A stretch of 22,334 nt of DNA, taken from IMG/VR virus record IMGVR_UViG_3300020220_000378, positions 1 to 22,334 of that record; one strand, 5' to 3'. Within the stretch, counting starts at the first letter, position 1, and each line of letters starts with the position of its first letter. The notes under the pieces were generated by a model. The model saw nothing but the letters and a program-made list of their open reading frames with translations, ran no database searches and was not told the origin of the DNA. The position numbers and the translations under genes were made by a program. Positions 7,154-18,032 of the stretch are shown here, in pieces. The DNA comes from a virus.

Positions 7154-8530
7154 ATGCAGCTCCGCGGTTATCAGCAGCAGGCCATCGATGATCTCCGCAA
7201 TGCCTACCGCGCTGGTAGCCGTGCCCCATTGCTATGCCTACCAACCGGCGGCGGCAAGACCATCATCTTCTCCGCCATCGCTCAGTCAGCAGTCGCGCGT
7301 GGCCGCAACGTGTTGATCCTGGTGCATCGGCGCGAGTTGCTTCATCAGGCCAGCCGCAAGCTCACCGCGATCAGCGTTGACCACGGCCTCATCGCTGCTG
7401 GTATTCCAACCAGTTGCCAACCAGTTCAGGTGGCCTCAGTGCAAACCCTTGTGCGCAGGCTCCTAACAATGACCTGGCAGCCGTCGCTGATCATCATCGA
7501 TGAAGCCCATCACGCCGCCGCTGGCTCATGGGATCGCGTGCTCCGCCACTGGCCTGATGCCTACCGCCTGGGCGTCACCGCCACACCATGCCGCCTCGAT
7601 GGCCGCGGCCTAGCGCAGGCTTTCGATCACCTTGTGCTCGGTCCATCCGTCGCCAGCCTGATCAATGCCGCCTACCTCACCGGCGCTCGCATTTACGCCC
7701 CGCCGCAGGTCGCCGACCTATCAGGCATCCGCAAGCGTGCTGGTGATTACGCCGCCGACCAGGCCGCTGATGCCATGAACCGCCCTACGGTGACCGGCGA
7801 TGCGATCGCTCATTACCAGCGCCTGGCAGCAGGTCAGCAGGCCATCGCGTTCTGCTGCTCCATCGATCATGCCAATTCCGTCTGCTCAGCATTCACCGCA
7901 GCCGGCATCCACGCCGCCACCCTGCTGGGCAACACCCCAAATCGCGATCAGGTCGTTGCAGCATTTGCCGCCGGTCAAGTGCAGATCCTGGTGACCGTCG
8001 ACGTGGTGAGTGAAGGCTTCGACATCCCCGCCGCATCCTGCGCCATCCTTCTACGCCCCACGCAATCGCTCGGCCTATATCTCCAGCAGATCGGTCGCGT
8101 ATTGCGCCCTGCACCAGGCAAGTCTCAGGCGCTGATTCTCGATCACGTTGGCAACGTCACCCGCCACGGATTCCCAGACGATCCACGTCACTGGTCACTC
8201 GCTGATGGTGCCAGGCGTGGCAGCCGCGGGAGCGCAGCGCCATCAGTGCGCACATGCCCAAGCTGTTACGCAGCCTTTAAGCCGGCGCCTGTGTGCCCAG
8301 TGTGTGGCCATCAGCAGCCCGCATCACCAGCACGCAAGCTCCGCCAGGTCGATGGTGAACTGCAGGAGCTGCATCGCGAATCAGTGCGGCAGCGAATTGC
8401 CGAACGCCATACCAAGCGCCGCGAACAGCAAGCAGCTCGCACCCTCCCGGATCTGCTCGCCCTAGCGCATCGCCGCGGCTACTCTCCAGGCTGGGCATAC
8501 CGGCTCTGGCATTCTCGTGGCCAACGATGA
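7154..8530 (+). CDS. SF2 DEAH helicase with C-terminal zinc ribbon
   Basis: 458 residues. All key SF2 motifs are present: a Q-like start (LRGYQQQA), Walker A PTGGGKT (30-36), DEAH (116-119), VTATP (141-145), VSEGFDIP (285-292) and QIGRVLRP (312-319). This is the ResIII/SSL2-type group common in phages, which unwinds or remodels DNA using ATP. A CxxC...CxxC zinc ribbon (C368, C371, C381, C384) and a basic tail follow. The start lacks a clear Shine-Dalgarno but sits right after the divergent promoter. The gene is markedly C-rich on the coding strand. It overlaps the nuclease gene downstream by 14 bases, suggesting a coupled helicase-nuclease pair. Confidence 0.92.
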   Translation: MQLRGYQQQAIDDLRNAYRAGSRAPLLCLPTGGGKTIIFSAIAQSAVARGRNVLILVHRRELLHQASRKLTAISVDHGLIAAGIPTSCQPVQVASVQTLVRRLLTMTWQPSLIIIDEAHHAAAGSWDRVLRHWPDAYRLGVTATPCRLDGRGLAQAFDHLVLGPSVASLINAAYLTGARIYAPPQVADLSGIRKRAGDYAADQAADAMNRPTVTGDAIAHYQRLAAGQQAIAFCCSIDHANSVCSAFTAAGIHAATLLGNTPNRDQVVAAFAAGQVQILVTVDVVSEGFDIPAASCAILLRPTQSLGLYLQQIGRVLRPAPGKSQALILDHVGNVTRHGFPDDPRHWSLADGARRGSRGSAAPSVRTCPSCYAAFKPAPVCPVCGHQQPASPARKLRQVDGELQELHRESVRQRIAERHTKRREQQAARTLPDLLALAHRRGYSPGWAYRLWHSRGQR

Positions 8531-9661: not shown

Positions 9662-9817
9662 ATGCAGCAACAGCGCCAGCAGCGCCGCACCATCACGATC
9701 GATCTACCGCCCGAGCAGATCGCTTGGCTTGATCAGCAAGCCAATCCCGTGATGTCTCGATCTGCATTCGTTCGTCACTTGATCGCTCAAGCAATGCAAC
9801 AGCAGGCTTCGCGCTGA
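9662..9817 (+). CDS. Ribbon-helix-helix (CopG/Arc-type) DNA-binding protein (51 aa)
   Basis: 51 residues from ATG at 9662; its TGA shares one base with the primase ATG (TGATG), so the two are coupled. After a Gln/Arg-rich arm, RRTITIDLP is the DNA-contacting beta strand. PEQIAWLDQQA and SRSAFVRHLIAQAM are the two helices of the RHH_1 fold. Such proteins bind short repeated sites as dimers of dimers and commonly repress their own operon or control plasmid or phage replication. The repeat cluster downstream of the primase gene is a possible target. The 58-bp region upstream is divergent with the nuclease gene; no TGTAAC heptamer is seen there. Confidence 0.8.
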   Translation: MQQQRQQRRTITIDLPPEQIAWLDQQANPVMSRSAFVRHLIAQAMQQQASR

Positions 9818-12321
9818 TGACCCGCATCACAGATCTTGCGCACGGCCAATGGTCCTCGATCCTTGGCGCCCTTGCTGGCCTATCTACTGACCAGCTCACT
9901 GACAAGCATCAACCCTGCCCGCTCTGCGGCGGCAAAGATCGCTATCGCTTTGATGATCAGGACGGCACCGGCTCCTGGTTCTGCAATCAATGCGGCGGCC
10001 CCTCTCAGTCCGGTGGCGCTGGTTCTGGCATGGACCTGCTCATGCGCCGCACCGGCTGGTCGTTCGCTGAAGCCGCTAAGCGCGTCGAGCAGCACCTCGG
10101 CATCACACCGCAGCGCCCCGATCCGCCCACTAAAGGCGCCGAGACCGTCTGGCGTTACAGCTCCGATTTCCTGGTCTGCCGTTTCCCTGGCAAGAAGATC
10201 CGCCCCCTTTGGTGGTCTGACAGCCGCTGGGAATGGAAGGCGCCACCAGCACCTCGCCCGCTTCTCAACCTCGACCAACTGCGCTCACGCACCGGCACCG
10301 TGCTGATCGTTGAAGGCGAAAAGACCGCCGACGCCGCAGCCAAGCTCTACCCCAAGGCCATCGTCACAACCTGGCCATCGGGCTGCAAAGCCATCGACAA
10401 GGCTGACTGGTCACCGCTCAGCGGCCGCCGCATCATCCTTTGGCCTGATGCAGATGCCGTAGGTCAGCAGGCGATGGATCGGCTCGCCCAGCTGCTGCTC
10501 CGCCTGCCCGTTGATCGCGTGCAGATGGTCGCCCCACCAGCTGATGTGCCCGAGGGTTGGGATCTCGCTGATGCCACTTGGACGCCAGAAGATGCCGCGG
10601 CCTACATCAAAACCAACATCTCTGCCCCCGTAGGGCTCGACGCAACCACACCCGAGCTGCCGGCCGCCGTCGAGTCCGATCCTGAGCCCGAGTTACCTGA
10701 GCTCGATCCCGGCGCTCACTTCACACCACTCGGTTTCGACGGCGATGCCTACTACTACCAGCCGCACAGCACCGGCCAAGTCATGCGCCTGTCACGCTCG
10801 GCGCATACCTCTACCAACCTGGTCGCTCTCGCGCCCCTCGAATACTGGCAGCAGCTCGCACCCGGCCAGCGCAGCCCCGTTGATTGGACGCTCGCAGCCT
10901 CGACTCTGTTTGCAATCTGCGCTGATCTCGGTGTCTACAACCCCGATGTGATCCGCGGCCGCGGCGCATGGTGGGACAACTTTCGCCCCGTGCTGCACCT
11001 GGGCGATCGCATCATCGCGGAAGGCAAGATTCACCCCGCCCTCAAGCCATTCGACAGCCGCTATCTCTACCAGCGCATGTCGCCTCTCAATGGTCCCGGC
11101 AATGCGAGGCCATTGACCGACGCCGAGGCCATCGTGATTTGCGAGCTGGCCGAACGCTTCCACTGGGAAGTACCAGCCTCCGGGCTGCTCCTCGCCGGCT
11201 GGGTCACCCTTGCGCCTATTTGTGGCGCTCTTCGGTGGCGGCCCCACGCATGGCTCACCGCAGCAGCAGGATCCGGGAAGTCCGCAATTCTCGACCGCTA
11301 TGTCGCGCCACTACTTGCCGACATGGGGCTGATCGTGGCCGGTGCCACCACTGAAGCCGCCCTTCGCCAAACCCTCCGCTCTGATGCCCTGCCCGTTGTC
11401 TTCGACGAGGCCGAATCAAACGAAAAGTCTGATCAGGTGCGGATGCAAAACATCCTCTCCCTGGCGCGTGTTGCGTCCAGTGAGTCTCACGCCACCTTGC
11501 TCAAGGGCTCACCAGCTGGTGATGTCACCCGCTTCAACATCCGCTCAATGTTCCTGATGTCATCCATTGCCACTGCCCTCAAGCAAGGCGCCGATCGTTC
11601 ACGCTTTGCTCAACTCACCCTGCGCTCACCCACAGAGCTGCCCAAGGAGCAACGCCTGGCCCACTGGGAGGCCCTCGACCGCGACTTAGACCGCTGCATC
11701 ACGCCCGAGGTAGCACTGCGTCTTATCGCGCGCACCATCTCCCTGATCCCCACAATCCGCCAATCAGTCCGCGTCTTCAGCCGCGTGGCAGCAGAACGCT
11801 TTGATTCTCAGCGCCTAGGTGATCAATACGGCACCCTCCTGGCCGGTGCATGGTCGCTCATGTCCAGCGAAGTGCCCACCACCGAACAGGCGCGGCAGCT
11901 GATCGATCAGAACGATTGGGAGCCCTACAGCCAGTCCACTGAGGTGCCTGATGAGCGGCGCTGCATTCAACGCATCCTGCAGCACCAGGTGCGCGTCGAA
12001 ACCGACCAGAAGACCTGCACCCGCACTCTGGGCGAATTGGTCGAGATCGTCAGCCATCAGGGCGTCGACATGGATGTGAGCACCCGCCAAGCGCAGGAGA
12101 ACCTTGGCCGCCATGGACTGCGCGTCGATTTGGAGGCTGGCCAGCTGTTCGTAAGCAACACAGCCGAGGCTTTGGCCACCATCCTGCGTGACACACCTTG
12201 GTCGCACAGCTGGGCCACCGTGCTCAGCCGACTGCCCGGAGCAGCGAAAGCCGGCGCTACCCGTTTCAGGGGTGCAGGCGCCATTTCCAGGGCTATAGCG
12301 TTACGGATTGGCGAGCTGTAA
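9817..12321 (+). CDS. Replicative primase-helicase (zinc-binding primase, Toprim, P-loop ATPase)
   Basis: 834 residues. N-terminus: zinc-binding primase finger C34-x2-C37...C56-x2-C59 (CPLCGGKDRYR...WFCNQCG). Residues 160-225: Toprim fold with E166 (LIVEGE) and D211-A-D213 (WPDAD), catalysing RNA primer synthesis. Residues about 300-610: DUF927-like ATPase with Walker A AAGSGKS (483-489) and Walker B LPVVFDEAE (D530, E531). The C-terminal about 130 residues are helical with a possible winged helix, a good candidate origin-recognition domain by analogy with P4 alpha protein. Its stop codon lies inside the first repeats of the origin-like cluster. The coding strand is strongly C-rich (10681-10740 has 24 C and 13 G). 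Confidence 0.92.
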   Translation: MTRITDLAHGQWSSILGALAGLSTDQLTDKHQPCPLCGGKDRYRFDDQDGTGSWFCNQCGGPSQSGGAGSGMDLLMRRTGWSFAEAAKRVEQHLGITPQRPDPPTKGAETVWRYSSDFLVCRFPGKKIRPLWWSDSRWEWKAPPAPRPLLNLDQLRSRTGTVLIVEGEKTADAAAKLYPKAIVTTWPSGCKAIDKADWSPLSGRRIILWPDADAVGQQAMDRLAQLLLRLPVDRVQMVAPPADVPEGWDLADATWTPEDAAAYIKTNISAPVGLDATTPELPAAVESDPEPELPELDPGAHFTPLGFDGDAYYYQPHSTGQVMRLSRSAHTSTNLVALAPLEYWQQLAPGQRSPVDWTLAASTLFAICADLGVYNPDVIRGRGAWWDNFRPVLHLGDRIIAEGKIHPALKPFDSRYLYQRMSPLNGPGNARPLTDAEAIVICELAERFHWEVPASGLLLAGWVTLAPICGALRWRPHAWLTAAAGSGKSAILDRYVAPLLADMGLIVAGATTEAALRQTLRSDALPVVFDEAESNEKSDQVRMQNILSLARVASSESHATLLKGSPAGDVTRFNIRSMFLMSSIATALKQGADRSRFAQLTLRSPTELPKEQRLAHWEALDRDLDRCITPEVALRLIARTISLIPTIRQSVRVFSRVAAERFDSQRLGDQYGTLLAGAWSLMSSEVPTTEQARQLIDQNDWEPYSQSTEVPDERRCIQRILQHQVRVETDQKTCTRTLGELVEIVSHQGVDMDVSTRQAQENLGRHGLRVDLEAGQLFVSNTAEALATILRDTPWSHSWATVLSRLPGAAKAGATRFRGAGAISRAIALRIGEL

Positions 12322-12368
12322 CGGCTTCTGTAACAGCTGAAAACCGTTGCGCCGCAAGCGATCTAGGC

Positions 12369-12393
12369 AAAGCGTAACGGTGTAACGCTTTTT
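12369..12393 (+). terminator. Possible intrinsic terminator after the primase gene
   Basis: AAAGCGT (12369-12375) pairs with ACGCTTT (12385-12391) around a 9-nt loop, and the T-run extends to 12393. The position, 48 bases after the primase stop, suits a terminator. The stem is only 7 bp and A/T-rich at the base, and the same bases are two of the TGTAAC heptamers, so the hairpin may simply reflect the repeats. Confidence 0.4.
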
Positions 12394-12515
12394 GGCGAAA
12401 ACATAGCCTCTCTCTCACACACACACAGAAAGGAGGAGACACCCTCTCAGACCCTCTCTCTAATATCTATCTTTTTAGAAATAGTTGTTACAACGTTACA
12501 GGGGCTTTTAAGTGC

Positions 12516-12531
12516 CTGCGCTGCAAGGGGT
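12516..12531 (+). repeat. 16-nt direct repeat, copy 1
   Basis: CTGCGCTGCAAGGGGT is identical to 13312-13327. A related, diverged pair lies at 12344-12369 and 13421-13448 (GTTGC..CGCAAG.GATCT.AGGCA in common). All four copies are in the two non-coding stretches flanking the gene at 12631-13305, none inside genes, which suggests protein-binding or recombination sites. Confidence 0.55.
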
Positions 12532-12630
12532 CTCGATGTAACAGTTGCTGTTACACCAGCGTTACACCTGTGACAGGCCAGATCAGCCCTGCCTCTCGCC
12601 TGGTTAGGTCCATCCGCCTACCCTTGACTC

Positions 12631-13305
12631 ATGGCATCCGTCACCCTCGACGCTGATCTCTCTGGTGCGATCAACTGGTCGGCTGCTCTCGCGCGGCAGA
12701 TGCCATTCGCCACATCACTGGCGCTGAACCGCACCGCATTCGACATCCGGCAGCTGTTCAACTACGAAACACAGCGCTACTTCGATCGCCCTGTGGCATT
12801 CACGCAGCGCGCCTTCTTGGTCGAGCGCAGCAACAAGCAGAACCTTGAGGCTGTGGTCTACGCCGAGGCCAGGCGTGCCCGCTACCTGCGCTTTGGCATC
12901 GATGGCGGTCTGCGGCCGCAGAAGGGATTCGAGAAGAAGTTCCTGAGCCAGATCGCAGGATCTGCACAGATACCGGCTTCGTCCCAGCTCGTGCCTACGT
13001 CACTCGTGCGGCTTACCTCGTCGGGCAACGTGAGCTTGCAAACGATTAGGCGCATTCAGCAGGGCCTTAACGGCAATGCTCGGGGCGGCTTCTTCGTGGG
13101 CAAGCCAAAGAACAATCCAGGGATGCCTGCTGGTATCTACCGACGTAGCAGAGAACGGCTGTATCCCTACTTCATCGCCGTGTCTGGCCGGTCCGCATAC
13201 CGTCCACGCTTCCCGATCGGTCAGCTCGGCACACAGATGGCAGAGCAGCGGTTCATGGGCTACCTGATCAGCAGCTTGGAGCAGGCTGTCGCCACCGCCC
13301 GCTGA
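12631..13305 (+). CDS. Phage morphogenesis protein, possibly minor-tail (gpZ)-like
   Basis: 224 residues. The opening LARQMPFATSLALNRTAFDIRQ, a FDRPVAFTQRAFLVERSNK segment, and the later GIYRR...YPYFIAVSGRSAYRPRFPI resemble a widespread unnamed protein of siphovirus-like prophages (pattern LPFA.A.ALN.TA..V.......FDRPT..T). It is loosely like the lambda minor tail protein Z group, which starts with a similar 'ALNRTA' helix. A virion assembly role is inferred from this and from neighbouring packaging genes. It lacks a Shine-Dalgarno, and gpZ-like genes normally lie after the head-tail joining genes, so its place upstream of terS is unusual. Confidence 0.5.
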   Translation: MASVTLDADLSGAINWSAALARQMPFATSLALNRTAFDIRQLFNYETQRYFDRPVAFTQRAFLVERSNKQNLEAVVYAEARRARYLRFGIDGGLRPQKGFEKKFLSQIAGSAQIPASSQLVPTSLVRLTSSGNVSLQTIRRIQQGLNGNARGGFFVGKPKNNPGMPAGIYRRSRERLYPYFIAVSGRSAYRPRFPIGQLGTQMAEQRFMGYLISSLEQAVATAR

Positions 13306-13311
13306 GATCCA

Positions 13312-13327
13312 CTGCGCTGCAAGGGGT
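13312..13327 (+). repeat. 16-nt direct repeat, copy 2
   Basis: Identical to 12516-12531 (CTGCGCTGCAAGGGGT), 796 bases apart. It sits seven bases after the stop of the gene at 12631-13305. Confidence 0.55.
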
Positions 13328-13413
13328 TTGGGGTGCCAAGTGCGGGTCCTTCCCGGCCTAAAGCACGCGGGTCGTTCACGCGCGCACGCTTTCGCTAGCG
13401 CCAGCGAAAAAAT

Positions 13414-13484
13414 CTCCTAAACGGTTGCAGCGCAAGGGATCTCAGGCAGTCTTGCGTGAAACTTCCTCTAAGACAGTTTAGGAG
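13414..13484. repeat. 9-bp perfect inverted repeat upstream of terS
   Basis: CTCCTAAAC at 13414-13422 and GTTTAGGAG at 13476-13484 are exact reverse complements separated by 53 bases. The second arm also supplies a purine-rich GGAGGG about 26 bases before the terS start, too far for a normal Shine-Dalgarno. The 53-bp spacer fits two protein sites about five helical turns apart rather than a simple hairpin. Confidence 0.5.
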
Positions 13485-13511
13485 GGTTTAGCAGCAGTTA
13501 AGTTAGCGGCA

Positions 13512-16467: not shown

Positions 16468-18032
16468 TGGGACTGCGCACAAGACTATTCCGTGCGATGG
16501 GCTTTGAGCCAATCCGTCAGCCTCGCGGTCGGATGTATCAAGGCGCGCGTTTCAGCAGGCTGACTGCCGATTGGGTGACAAGTGGCACGAGTGCCGACAG
16601 TGAAATCAAGGGCAGCTTCAAGGTGCTGCGCAATCGTGCACGCCAGCTCTGTCGCGATAACGACTACGCAAGGCAAGCCTTAAGAAGCATTGAGAACAAC
16701 GTGATCGGGCATGGCATCAGGCATCAGGGCCAGGTGCGGATGCTGCGTGGCGGGCGATTGGATGAAGCGGTGAACGATCAAATCCACATGGAGTGGGAGA
16801 AGTGGATGAATAAAAACAGCTGCGATGTCAGTGGGGTTCTTGGTTTCGATGCGATGACTCGCTTGCTGGTACGCAGCCTTGCGGAGTCTGGTGAGATTTT
16901 TGTGCGAATGGTGCGCAAACCATTTGGCAACTCACGGGTGCCGTTTGCGTTACAGGTCTTGGAGGCTGACTATCTGATCGATGATGAGATGCCACCTGTT
17001 AAGAATGGCAACTTTGTTCGGATGGGCATTGAGGTCGATCAATACCTGCGGCCCGAGGCGTATCACTTCTATGCATCACACCCTGGCGACATCTCAGCGG
17101 GTTTGCCGCGTGTCAATCAAAAACGGATTCGCGTGCCAGCTGATGAGGTGATCCATCTGTTCCTGCCGGAACGGCCAGGGCAGACCAGAGGTGTGACGTG
17201 GTTTGCTTCTGCGCTGATGCGGCTGCACATGTTGCAGGGATATGAAGAGGCTGAAGTGGTGCGCGCTCGTGCCAGTAGCGCATTGATGGGTTTTATCACC
17301 AGCCCTGAGGGCGAGTTGGTTGCTGATGAGATTTATGACAATGAGCGTGTGAGCGAGTTTCAGCCTGGGGTTTTCAAGTATTTGGAGCCAGGCCAAAGCG
17401 TGTCAGTGCCAGACCTGAACGCACCTGATGGGCAGCTGGAACCATTCACCCGTTCCATGCTGCGTGCTGTTGCGGCTGGCGTTGGCGTCAGCTTTGAGAG
17501 CATCAGCAAGAACTTCTCAGAGAGCAACTACAGCAGCAGCAGGTTGAGCTTGCTTGAGGAGCGTGACACGTATCGAGTGCTGCAGCGCTTCATGATCGAG
17601 AACTTCCATCAAGAGGTCTTCAACAACTGGCTTGAGATGGCAGTGCTGAGTGGCGCATTGAACCTGCCGGCCTATGAGACGAACCCTGATCGCTATCGCG
17701 CCAGCAAGTGGGTGCCGCGTTGTTGGGAATGGGTTGATCCACAGCGAGAGGTGGATGCGTACAAGACTGCTGTACGGTGCGGCTTCAAGACTTTGGCGCA
17801 AGTCATCACGGAACAAGGCGGCGACTTGGACGCAGTGCTGATGCAACGGCAATCAGAGCTGGCCAAACTCGATGAGATGGACATTGTGCTGGATACAGAT
17901 CCAAGTGAAGTGACTGACGGTGGTGCTGCACAGGTGTCAAGGCCTATGGGCGCTGAGGCACCATTTGAAGAAACTGAAGCACCTATTGCGGAGGATGGTG
18001 AAGAGGTCGAAGAAGAACTGCAGGATTACTGA
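16467..18032 (+). CDS. Portal protein, lambda gpB family
   Basis: 521 residues. The start follows GAGGT by five bases and overlaps the preceding stop as TGATG. The sequence fits the lambda portal family: GARFSRLTADWVTSGTSADSE, the RARQLCRDNDYARQALRSIENNVIGHGI segment, an LEADYLI strand, VIHLFLPERPGQTRGVTWFA, and AAGVGVSFESISKNFSESNYSSSRLSLLEE in the stem/wing. The portal forms the dodecameric DNA channel at one head vertex and docks the terminase. The last 60 residues are acidic and low-complexity (EETEAPIAEDGEEVEEELQ). The stop overlaps the polyprotein start by one base. Confidence 0.95.
   Translation: MGLRTRLFRAMGFEPIRQPRGRMYQGARFSRLTADWVTSGTSADSEIKGSFKVLRNRARQLCRDNDYARQALRSIENNVIGHGIRHQGQVRMLRGGRLDEAVNDQIHMEWEKWMNKNSCDVSGVLGFDAMTRLLVRSLAESGEIFVRMVRKPFGNSRVPFALQVLEADYLIDDEMPPVKNGNFVRMGIEVDQYLRPEAYHFYASHPGDISAGLPRVNQKRIRVPADEVIHLFLPERPGQTRGVTWFASALMRLHMLQGYEEAEVVRARASSALMGFITSPEGELVADEIYDNERVSEFQPGVFKYLEPGQSVSVPDLNAPDGQLEPFTRSMLRAVAAGVGVSFESISKNFSESNYSSSRLSLLEERDTYRVLQRFMIENFHQEVFNNWLEMAVLSGALNLPAYETNPDRYRASKWVPRCWEWVDPQREVDAYKTAVRCGFKTLAQVITEQGGDLDAVLMQRQSELAKLDEMDIVLDTDPSEVTDGGAAQVSRPMGAEAPFEETEAPIAEDGEEVEEELQDY

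Follow-up and report, generated by a model that had tools for sequence, protein, structure and literature searches.

The alpha protein of phage P4 joins a zinc ribbon, a Toprim primase and a helicase in one chain and has its own origin sites (ori/crr), and P4 replication needs two separate sites. In iteron plasmids of the RepE, TrfA and RepA types, the initiator, which is not itself a helicase or primase, sits on iterons beside an A+T-rich unwinding element, and the iterons are as a rule one-sided. The origins of phage-inducible chromosomal islands (PICIs) and Staphylococcus aureus pathogenicity islands (SaPIs) lie directly 3' of the initiator-helicase gene and have short iterons in two sets, one on either side of an A+T-rich region (PMC6092414, PMC7581432). 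SaPI Rep helicases bind the iterons directly downstream of their gene with a C-terminal domain, apparently as two hexamers (PMC7581432). This layout was reported to be restricted to those islands, and a relationship to MCM helicases was reported for Cch of the staphylococcal cassette chromosome mec (SCCmec). Here, we analyzed a 22,334-bp record of a virus that infects cyanobacteria (IMGVR_UViG_3300020220_000378; its whole length is called the window), in which an array of short repeats follows the gene for an 834-amino-acid primase-helicase. Sequence comparison suggests, with a probability of roughly 0.86, that positions 12299 to 12575 are a phage replication origin bound by the C-terminal domain of the upstream primase-helicase.

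The closest known layout is the PICI/SaPI origin rather than P4, to which a sequence-only reading of the window had likened the locus; comparative evidence favors the replicator logic of that reading, a primase-helicase with its own iterons and an A+T-rich core, but not the choice of P4 as the nearest parallel. As in the rep-ori units of SaPIbov1 Rep, SCCmec Cch/Cch2 and Escherichia coli PICIs, the array lies directly 3' of the gene for the putative initiator-helicase, with two iteron sets around an A+T-rich region. The role of the SaPI Rep C-terminal domain in recognizing iterons is the one proposed for the window protein, whose MCM-like helicase model may parallel the reported relationship of Cch. 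Unlike SaPI Rep and Cch, however, the window protein has a fused Toprim primase and no DUF927 match in Pfam, this domain being absent from the Pfam hits of 38 relatives and of the helicase part alone. Unlike PICI/SaPI origins, the array is built from heptamers of a YGTNN(C/G)R family, matched by a single protein residue, and, unlike a PICI, the window is a phage, with terminase subunits and a minor tail protein, all by family match, and large portal-like and protease/capsid-like reading frames. P4 alpha resembles the window protein in that a single chain combines zinc ribbon, Toprim primase and helicase and is accompanied by origin sites of its own (candidate ones in the window), but the window helicase models as MCM-like, no D5/superfamily 3 (SF3) helicase match was found in Pfam, and no match linked the C-terminal domain to that of P4. 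Iteron plasmids likewise have an initiator on iterons beside an A+T-rich unwinding element, whereas the candidate initiator of the window would be both helicase and primase, and its array is two-sided.

A heptamer array at the 3' end of the primase-helicase gene

Ten exact copies of YGTAACR were counted in 268 bases, each at the position previously noticed, whereas 900 Markov-simulated windows (orders 1 to 3) gave at most three in any 268-bp stretch. Outside the array the pattern occurs four times in the window: at 10153, 16041 and 16948, as the sequence-only reading had found, and at 8264, which its total of about three had missed. That reading had also placed the primase stop codon inside the array, and the TAA indeed forms part of the heptamer at 12317. 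Its A+T-rich core was likewise borne out, positions 12461 to 12490 being 83% A+T, the highest value of any 30-mer in the window (window mean, 42%). There are five strict sites per side, and a relaxed-type eleventh site, TGTGACA at 12569, gives six on the right. The features are as follows, the ten strict heptamers having been located by pattern count.

9817 to 12321, plus strand: primase-helicase, 834 amino acids, with zinc ribbon, Toprim primase, MCM-like AAA+ ATPase and putative C-terminal DNA-binding domain (PF08273, fold matches, phrog_35358)
11884 to 12318, plus strand: C-terminal domain, residues 690 to 834, proposed to bind the array (predicted alone with a local distance difference test score [pLDDT] of 88.6 and a template modeling score [pTM] of 0.79; weak winged-helix matches)
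12262 to 12264, plus strand: codon of Arg816, the residue that tracks heptamer position 6 (0 mismatches in 73)
12299 to 12305, minus strand: heptamer L5, CGTAACG, inside the primase-helicase gene
12317 to 12323, plus strand: heptamer L4, TGTAACG, which includes the stop codon
12329 to 12335, plus strand: heptamer L3, TGTAACA
12373 to 12379, plus strand: heptamer L2, CGTAACG
12381 to 12387, plus strand: heptamer L1, TGTAACG
12388 to 12485, no strand: core, a CT/CA tract and then the A+T-rich block 12461 to 12490, a likely unwinding element (from the sequence and the position of the block in relatives)
12486 to 12492, minus strand: heptamer R1, TGTAACA
12494 to 12500, minus strand: heptamer R2, TGTAACG
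12537 to 12543, plus strand: heptamer R3, TGTAACA
12549 to 12555, minus strand: heptamer R4, TGTAACA
12560 to 12566, minus strand: heptamer R5, TGTAACG
12569 to 12575, plus strand: degenerate heptamer R6, TGTGACA, which matches YGTNACR and a conserved step of +83

Successive heptamers are separated by steps of 18, 12, 44 and 8 bp on the left, 105 bp across the core, and 8, 43, 12 and 11 bp on the right. Reflection about 12436 matches 8 of the 10 sites, but 38 of 500 random placements within the same outer limits reached at least eight reflected matches, so symmetry in the window alone is weak evidence; this weakness is offset by a spacing layout that relatives keep. The mirror image described earlier survives in the spacing but not in the orientation of the sites. 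The heptamer is nearly palindromic, YGT(A/T)ACR, and YGTAACR differs from its reverse complement YGTTACR at the center only, so that orientation amounts to one base and is not meaningful. This base, on which the claimed pointing of copies to the left or right depends, flips at the same place among close relatives (for example, 55+ and 63+ in locus L003 versus 55- and 63- in L014). The symmetric feature of the array is its spacing. Scans for Rfam families, tRNAs and promoters in the window or the region gave nothing relevant, and no description of such an array in cyanophages was found in the literature searched.

The primase-helicase protein was searched against viral contigs, and the 80 best loci were examined. 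In all 80 of these close relatives the array, or its visible part at a contig end, is at the primase 3' end, which is the position of the PICI/SaPI origin; in some distant phages it is elsewhere. At 55 loci, 4 to 13 YGT(A/T)ACR sites surround the gene end, with next to none in the remaining DNA, and an unsupervised count at the other 25 gave a different hexamer (CCTAAC, CGTAAG or CGTGAG) in up to 12 copies at the same place. The TGTAAC cluster that the sequence-only reading expected to stay with the primase was thus absent from 25 of the 80 loci, but because an array of another heptamer stands in its place there, the replicator idea is strengthened. Clades have their own heptamers (YGTTAGR, YGTAAGR, YGTGAGR, YGTCCCR and others), in which the YGT half is unchanged in nearly all relatives, and site positions agree across heptamer classes on a common scale.

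Spacing statistics were taken over 58 arrays. Counted from the inner site, the steps of the right half are 0, 8 to 9, 51 to 53, 63 to 65, 73 to 76 and 82 to 85, and those of the left half are 0, 8 to 9, about 18 in some, 50 to 53, 60 to 64, and 69 to 73 or 82. Four of the steps would be close to 5, 6, 7 and 8 helical turns, at 10.5 bp per turn. Under strict patterns the mode is six sites for the right half and five for the left, and the median core step is 104 bp. In the window and in the relatives, two iteron sets flank an A+T-rich region, and the A+T-rich block of the core usually lies beside the right inner pair.

The terminase genes follow within 1.2 kb, which might make the array a packaging site (cos/pac) for the terminase small subunit. 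However, the physical genome ends of relatives map about 1.05 to 1.2 kb past the primase stop and not at the array. Furthermore, the array stays with the primase under other layouts, such as that of phage S-H1 (array at about 17,620 to 17,880), in which the genes after the array differ. The packaging-site explanation is thus largely refuted, and we regard it as exceedingly improbable.

Residue 816 and the sixth heptamer letter

The 834-amino-acid protein matches PF08273 (Zn_Ribbon_Prim; E, 1.4e-16) and the DNA primase family phrog_35358, and a PDB sequence search returned no relative. In the predicted full-length model, a Toprim primase of DnaG/T7 type and an MCM-like ATPase can be recognized (fold search, Toprim Z of 13 and MCM Z of 9); the model is of only moderate quality, its mean pLDDT being 70.5 and much of the ATPase part falling below 50. 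The C-terminal 145 residues were predicted alone at a mean pLDDT of 88.6 (pTM, 0.79), and a predicted hairpin formed by strands 810 to 817 and 822 to 830 has residue 816 close to its tip. A PDB fold search with this C-terminal model gave weak winged-helix matches, the best being relaxosome protein 5vfy (Z, 5.0), and neither P4 1KA8 nor SCCmec Cch was in its lists of matches.

In order to relate protein to array, every alignment column of the primase-helicase was tested for association with heptamer class. Residue 816 was the sole outlier, with a normalized mutual information of 0.91 versus 0.64 for the next column. Arg816 occurred with YGT(A/T)ACR; Trp816 with YGTTAGR or YGTTCGR, including in the isolated phage S-H1; and Tyr816 or His816 with YGTAAGR or YGTGAGR. 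Columns 828 and 815 were considered as specificity residues and rejected, because their signal is partly coding overlap: the heptamer at 12299 covers column 828, and a site found in some relatives covers 815.

The rule emerged from 39 sequences. Four additional scans, run with different queries, yielded 46 new non-redundant relatives, 34 of which had a readable array of a single type and formed the held-out test set. The rule held: Arg was always found with C at position 6, and Trp, Tyr and His were found with G or, twice, with T. The pairing of Arg with C6 extended to new heptamers (YGTTGCR, YGTCCCR and YGTGACR) and to the eight-base YGTAGACR of locus L206. In the pooled 73 non-redundant sequences, from which the mixed locus L150 was set aside, column 816 separated C6 from non-C6 arrays with 0 mismatches, and the next best of 815 columns had 7. 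In a tree of residues 1 to 700, without the C-terminal domain, letter 6 switches at least seven times, six of them forced by well-supported branches; a clade that changes all of its sites must also change the reader of the array. Heptamers overlap codon 816 in only 1 of the 73 sequences and all six Arg codons occur, so the association is not a by-product of DNA sites lying within the gene.

A scan of bacterial genomes added loci of Synechococcus, Cyanobium and Vulcanococcus, which fit the rule without contradiction: Arg with YGTTCCR, YGTCCCR, YGT(G/C)ACR or YGT(A/T)ACR, Trp with YGTTTGR, and His with YGTTAGR or YGTTGGR. Some of these cyanobacterial arrays have three to five sites only, and at one locus of the scan, L333, an array was not seen. 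Across more than 100 related viruses, prophages and plasmids, one amino acid of the enzyme changes in step with one heptamer letter. These results support recognition of the iterons by the C-terminal domain of the putative initiator, and it is from this covariation that we infer binding of the protein to the array.

A ribbon-helix-helix (RHH) protein of 51 amino acids is encoded upstream, and the array could instead be its operator, controlling the primase or late genes. RHH repressors, omega among them, recognize arrays of 7-bp heptads, the RHH gene adjoins the primase in the window, and an RHH relative is present in most close loci. However, nearly identical RHH DNA-reading strands (SHPLAVQF) occur with array classes A (L053), B (L055) and C (L064), while L014, L017 and L037 to L040 have arrays but no detectable RHH gene within the flanks examined. 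In addition, no sigma-70-like promoter was found in 12200 to 12700, and primase column 816 fully explains the array letter. An RHH operator is thus a highly improbable explanation. The array might also be a partition centromere, since clustered sites beside a core resemble centromeres, but neither ParA nor ParB was recognized among the window proteins scanned, and the protein that covaries with the array is the primase-helicase; this explanation is barely credible.

Under the preferred reading, in which the array is an origin recognized by the primase-helicase, the C-terminal domain would bind heptamers on both half-arrays, and about six sites per side would seat two hexamers flanking the A+T-rich core. 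The core would then melt, the MCM-like motors would unwind outward, and the fused Toprim domain would prime synthesis. Residue 816 in the C-terminal hairpin would read letter 6, with Arg for C and Trp, Tyr or His for G. The two hexamers, the melting and the replication itself are suggested by SaPI Rep (PMC7581432) and by the anatomy of the locus. The array and the primase-helicase would provide a defined candidate origin and initiator for a large group of phages and prophages of cyanobacteria, and for relatives in other bacteria.

Plasmids, exceptions and neighboring genes

Two Arsenophonus plasmids of 7.9 and 8.2 kb have, as their sole evident replication gene, a relative without the primase half. 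Directly 3' of it are 13 sites, arranged as 4+2, core, 2+4, with steps of 12, 45 and 8 before the core and 8, 45 to 60 and 12 after it. One plasmid has TGTTAC and the other TGTAAT, with Lys and Phe, respectively, in the hairpin; at less than 30% identity, the equivalence of these residues to residue 816 is uncertain. Arsenophonus plasmid paNv_CH14, which carries such a relative, also encodes a protelomerase (L353, 6440 to 8005), suggesting a linear, hairpin-ended plasmid.

The primase-helicase might bind the array for autoregulation, handcuffing or incompatibility only, with replication starting elsewhere: the covariation of residue 816 shows recognition and not initiation, and many iteron systems combine regulation and initiation. 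However, two half-arrays with an A+T-rich core between them, placed at the gene's 3' end, would be unusual for autoregulation, and the rep-array unit is also found on 8-kb plasmids, which need an origin. It therefore seems very unlikely that the array serves regulation only. The occurrence of the PICI/SaPI layout in ordinary phages, prophages and small plasmids extends it beyond the islands, which bears on the source of satellite replicons.

In complete genomes of more distant phages, the strongest GTAAC-type cluster adjoins the primase in Bdellovibrio phage phi1422, lies upstream of the primase in Acinetobacter phage Acjo_20, is 1.6 kb from it in Serratia phage MQ-4 and, in Bordetella phage PBb001, falls within a large non-coding gap.

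Several observations weigh against the origin and its proposed recognition. Phage KLER1-1 (36% identity) breaks the 816 rule, as its sites are TGTAAGC/TGTTAGC although its hairpin carries Arg. Locus L150 (2501 to 5600) has Tyr816 with a left half-array of CGTGAGA and a right one of TGTAACR, the break falling inside the A+T-rich core, and Atlantibacter plasmid pLH84-a-B (L354, 8544 to 8964) has GGTAAC on the left and GGTAAT on the right. These two could be recombinants caught in transition, and the chimera of L150 could also be a misassembly. No array was found near the gene in L216 and L217 (37 to 38% identity), in several relatives more than 40% diverged or, in the stretches read, near the primase of ZRG1, ST4 and Jeremy. 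A strong PDB fold match to the C-terminal domain model was not found. In genomes laid out like the window, the minimum of the cumulative GC skew sits at the genome end, about 1 kb rightward of the array, and in other layouts it is elsewhere; GC skew was rejected as evidence for the origin because its minimum follows the genome end and not the array.

For this widespread family of phage and plasmid primase-helicases, we lean, with some reserve, toward a broader model: a wing residue, 816, would pick base 6 of every heptamer, and coordinated switching of the residue and about twelve sites, sometimes caught half-way as half-array chimeras, would give rise to mutually incompatible replicons. Specificity in origin recognition would then follow a rule that pairs one residue with one base, and natural variants exist of both partners; the rule is possibly useful for building non-interfering replicons in cyanobacteria.

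The cumulative GC skew of the window drops to a sharp minimum at 13234, a point flanked on both sides by genes of the same strand. The contigs of L003, L008, L012, L013, L019, L022 and L034 end about 1.05 to 1.2 kb after the primase stop, beside a conserved CGGGTCCTTCCC-type (CGGGTCC-type) sequence, and that of L022 runs into Illumina adapter at this end. The CGGGTCCTTCCC-type sequence occurs near 13342 to 13382 of the window, and 13306 to 13511 is a probable cos site. A minor-tail-protein gene (phrog_1924, 12631 to 13305) separates the array from the terminase genes and is not grouped with the other tail genes. S-H1 (L093, 17891 to 18212) and genomes of the L050, L052 and L060 type have a second RHH-like gene, extended at its C terminus, immediately downstream of the array, either in place of the upstream RHH gene or in addition to it.
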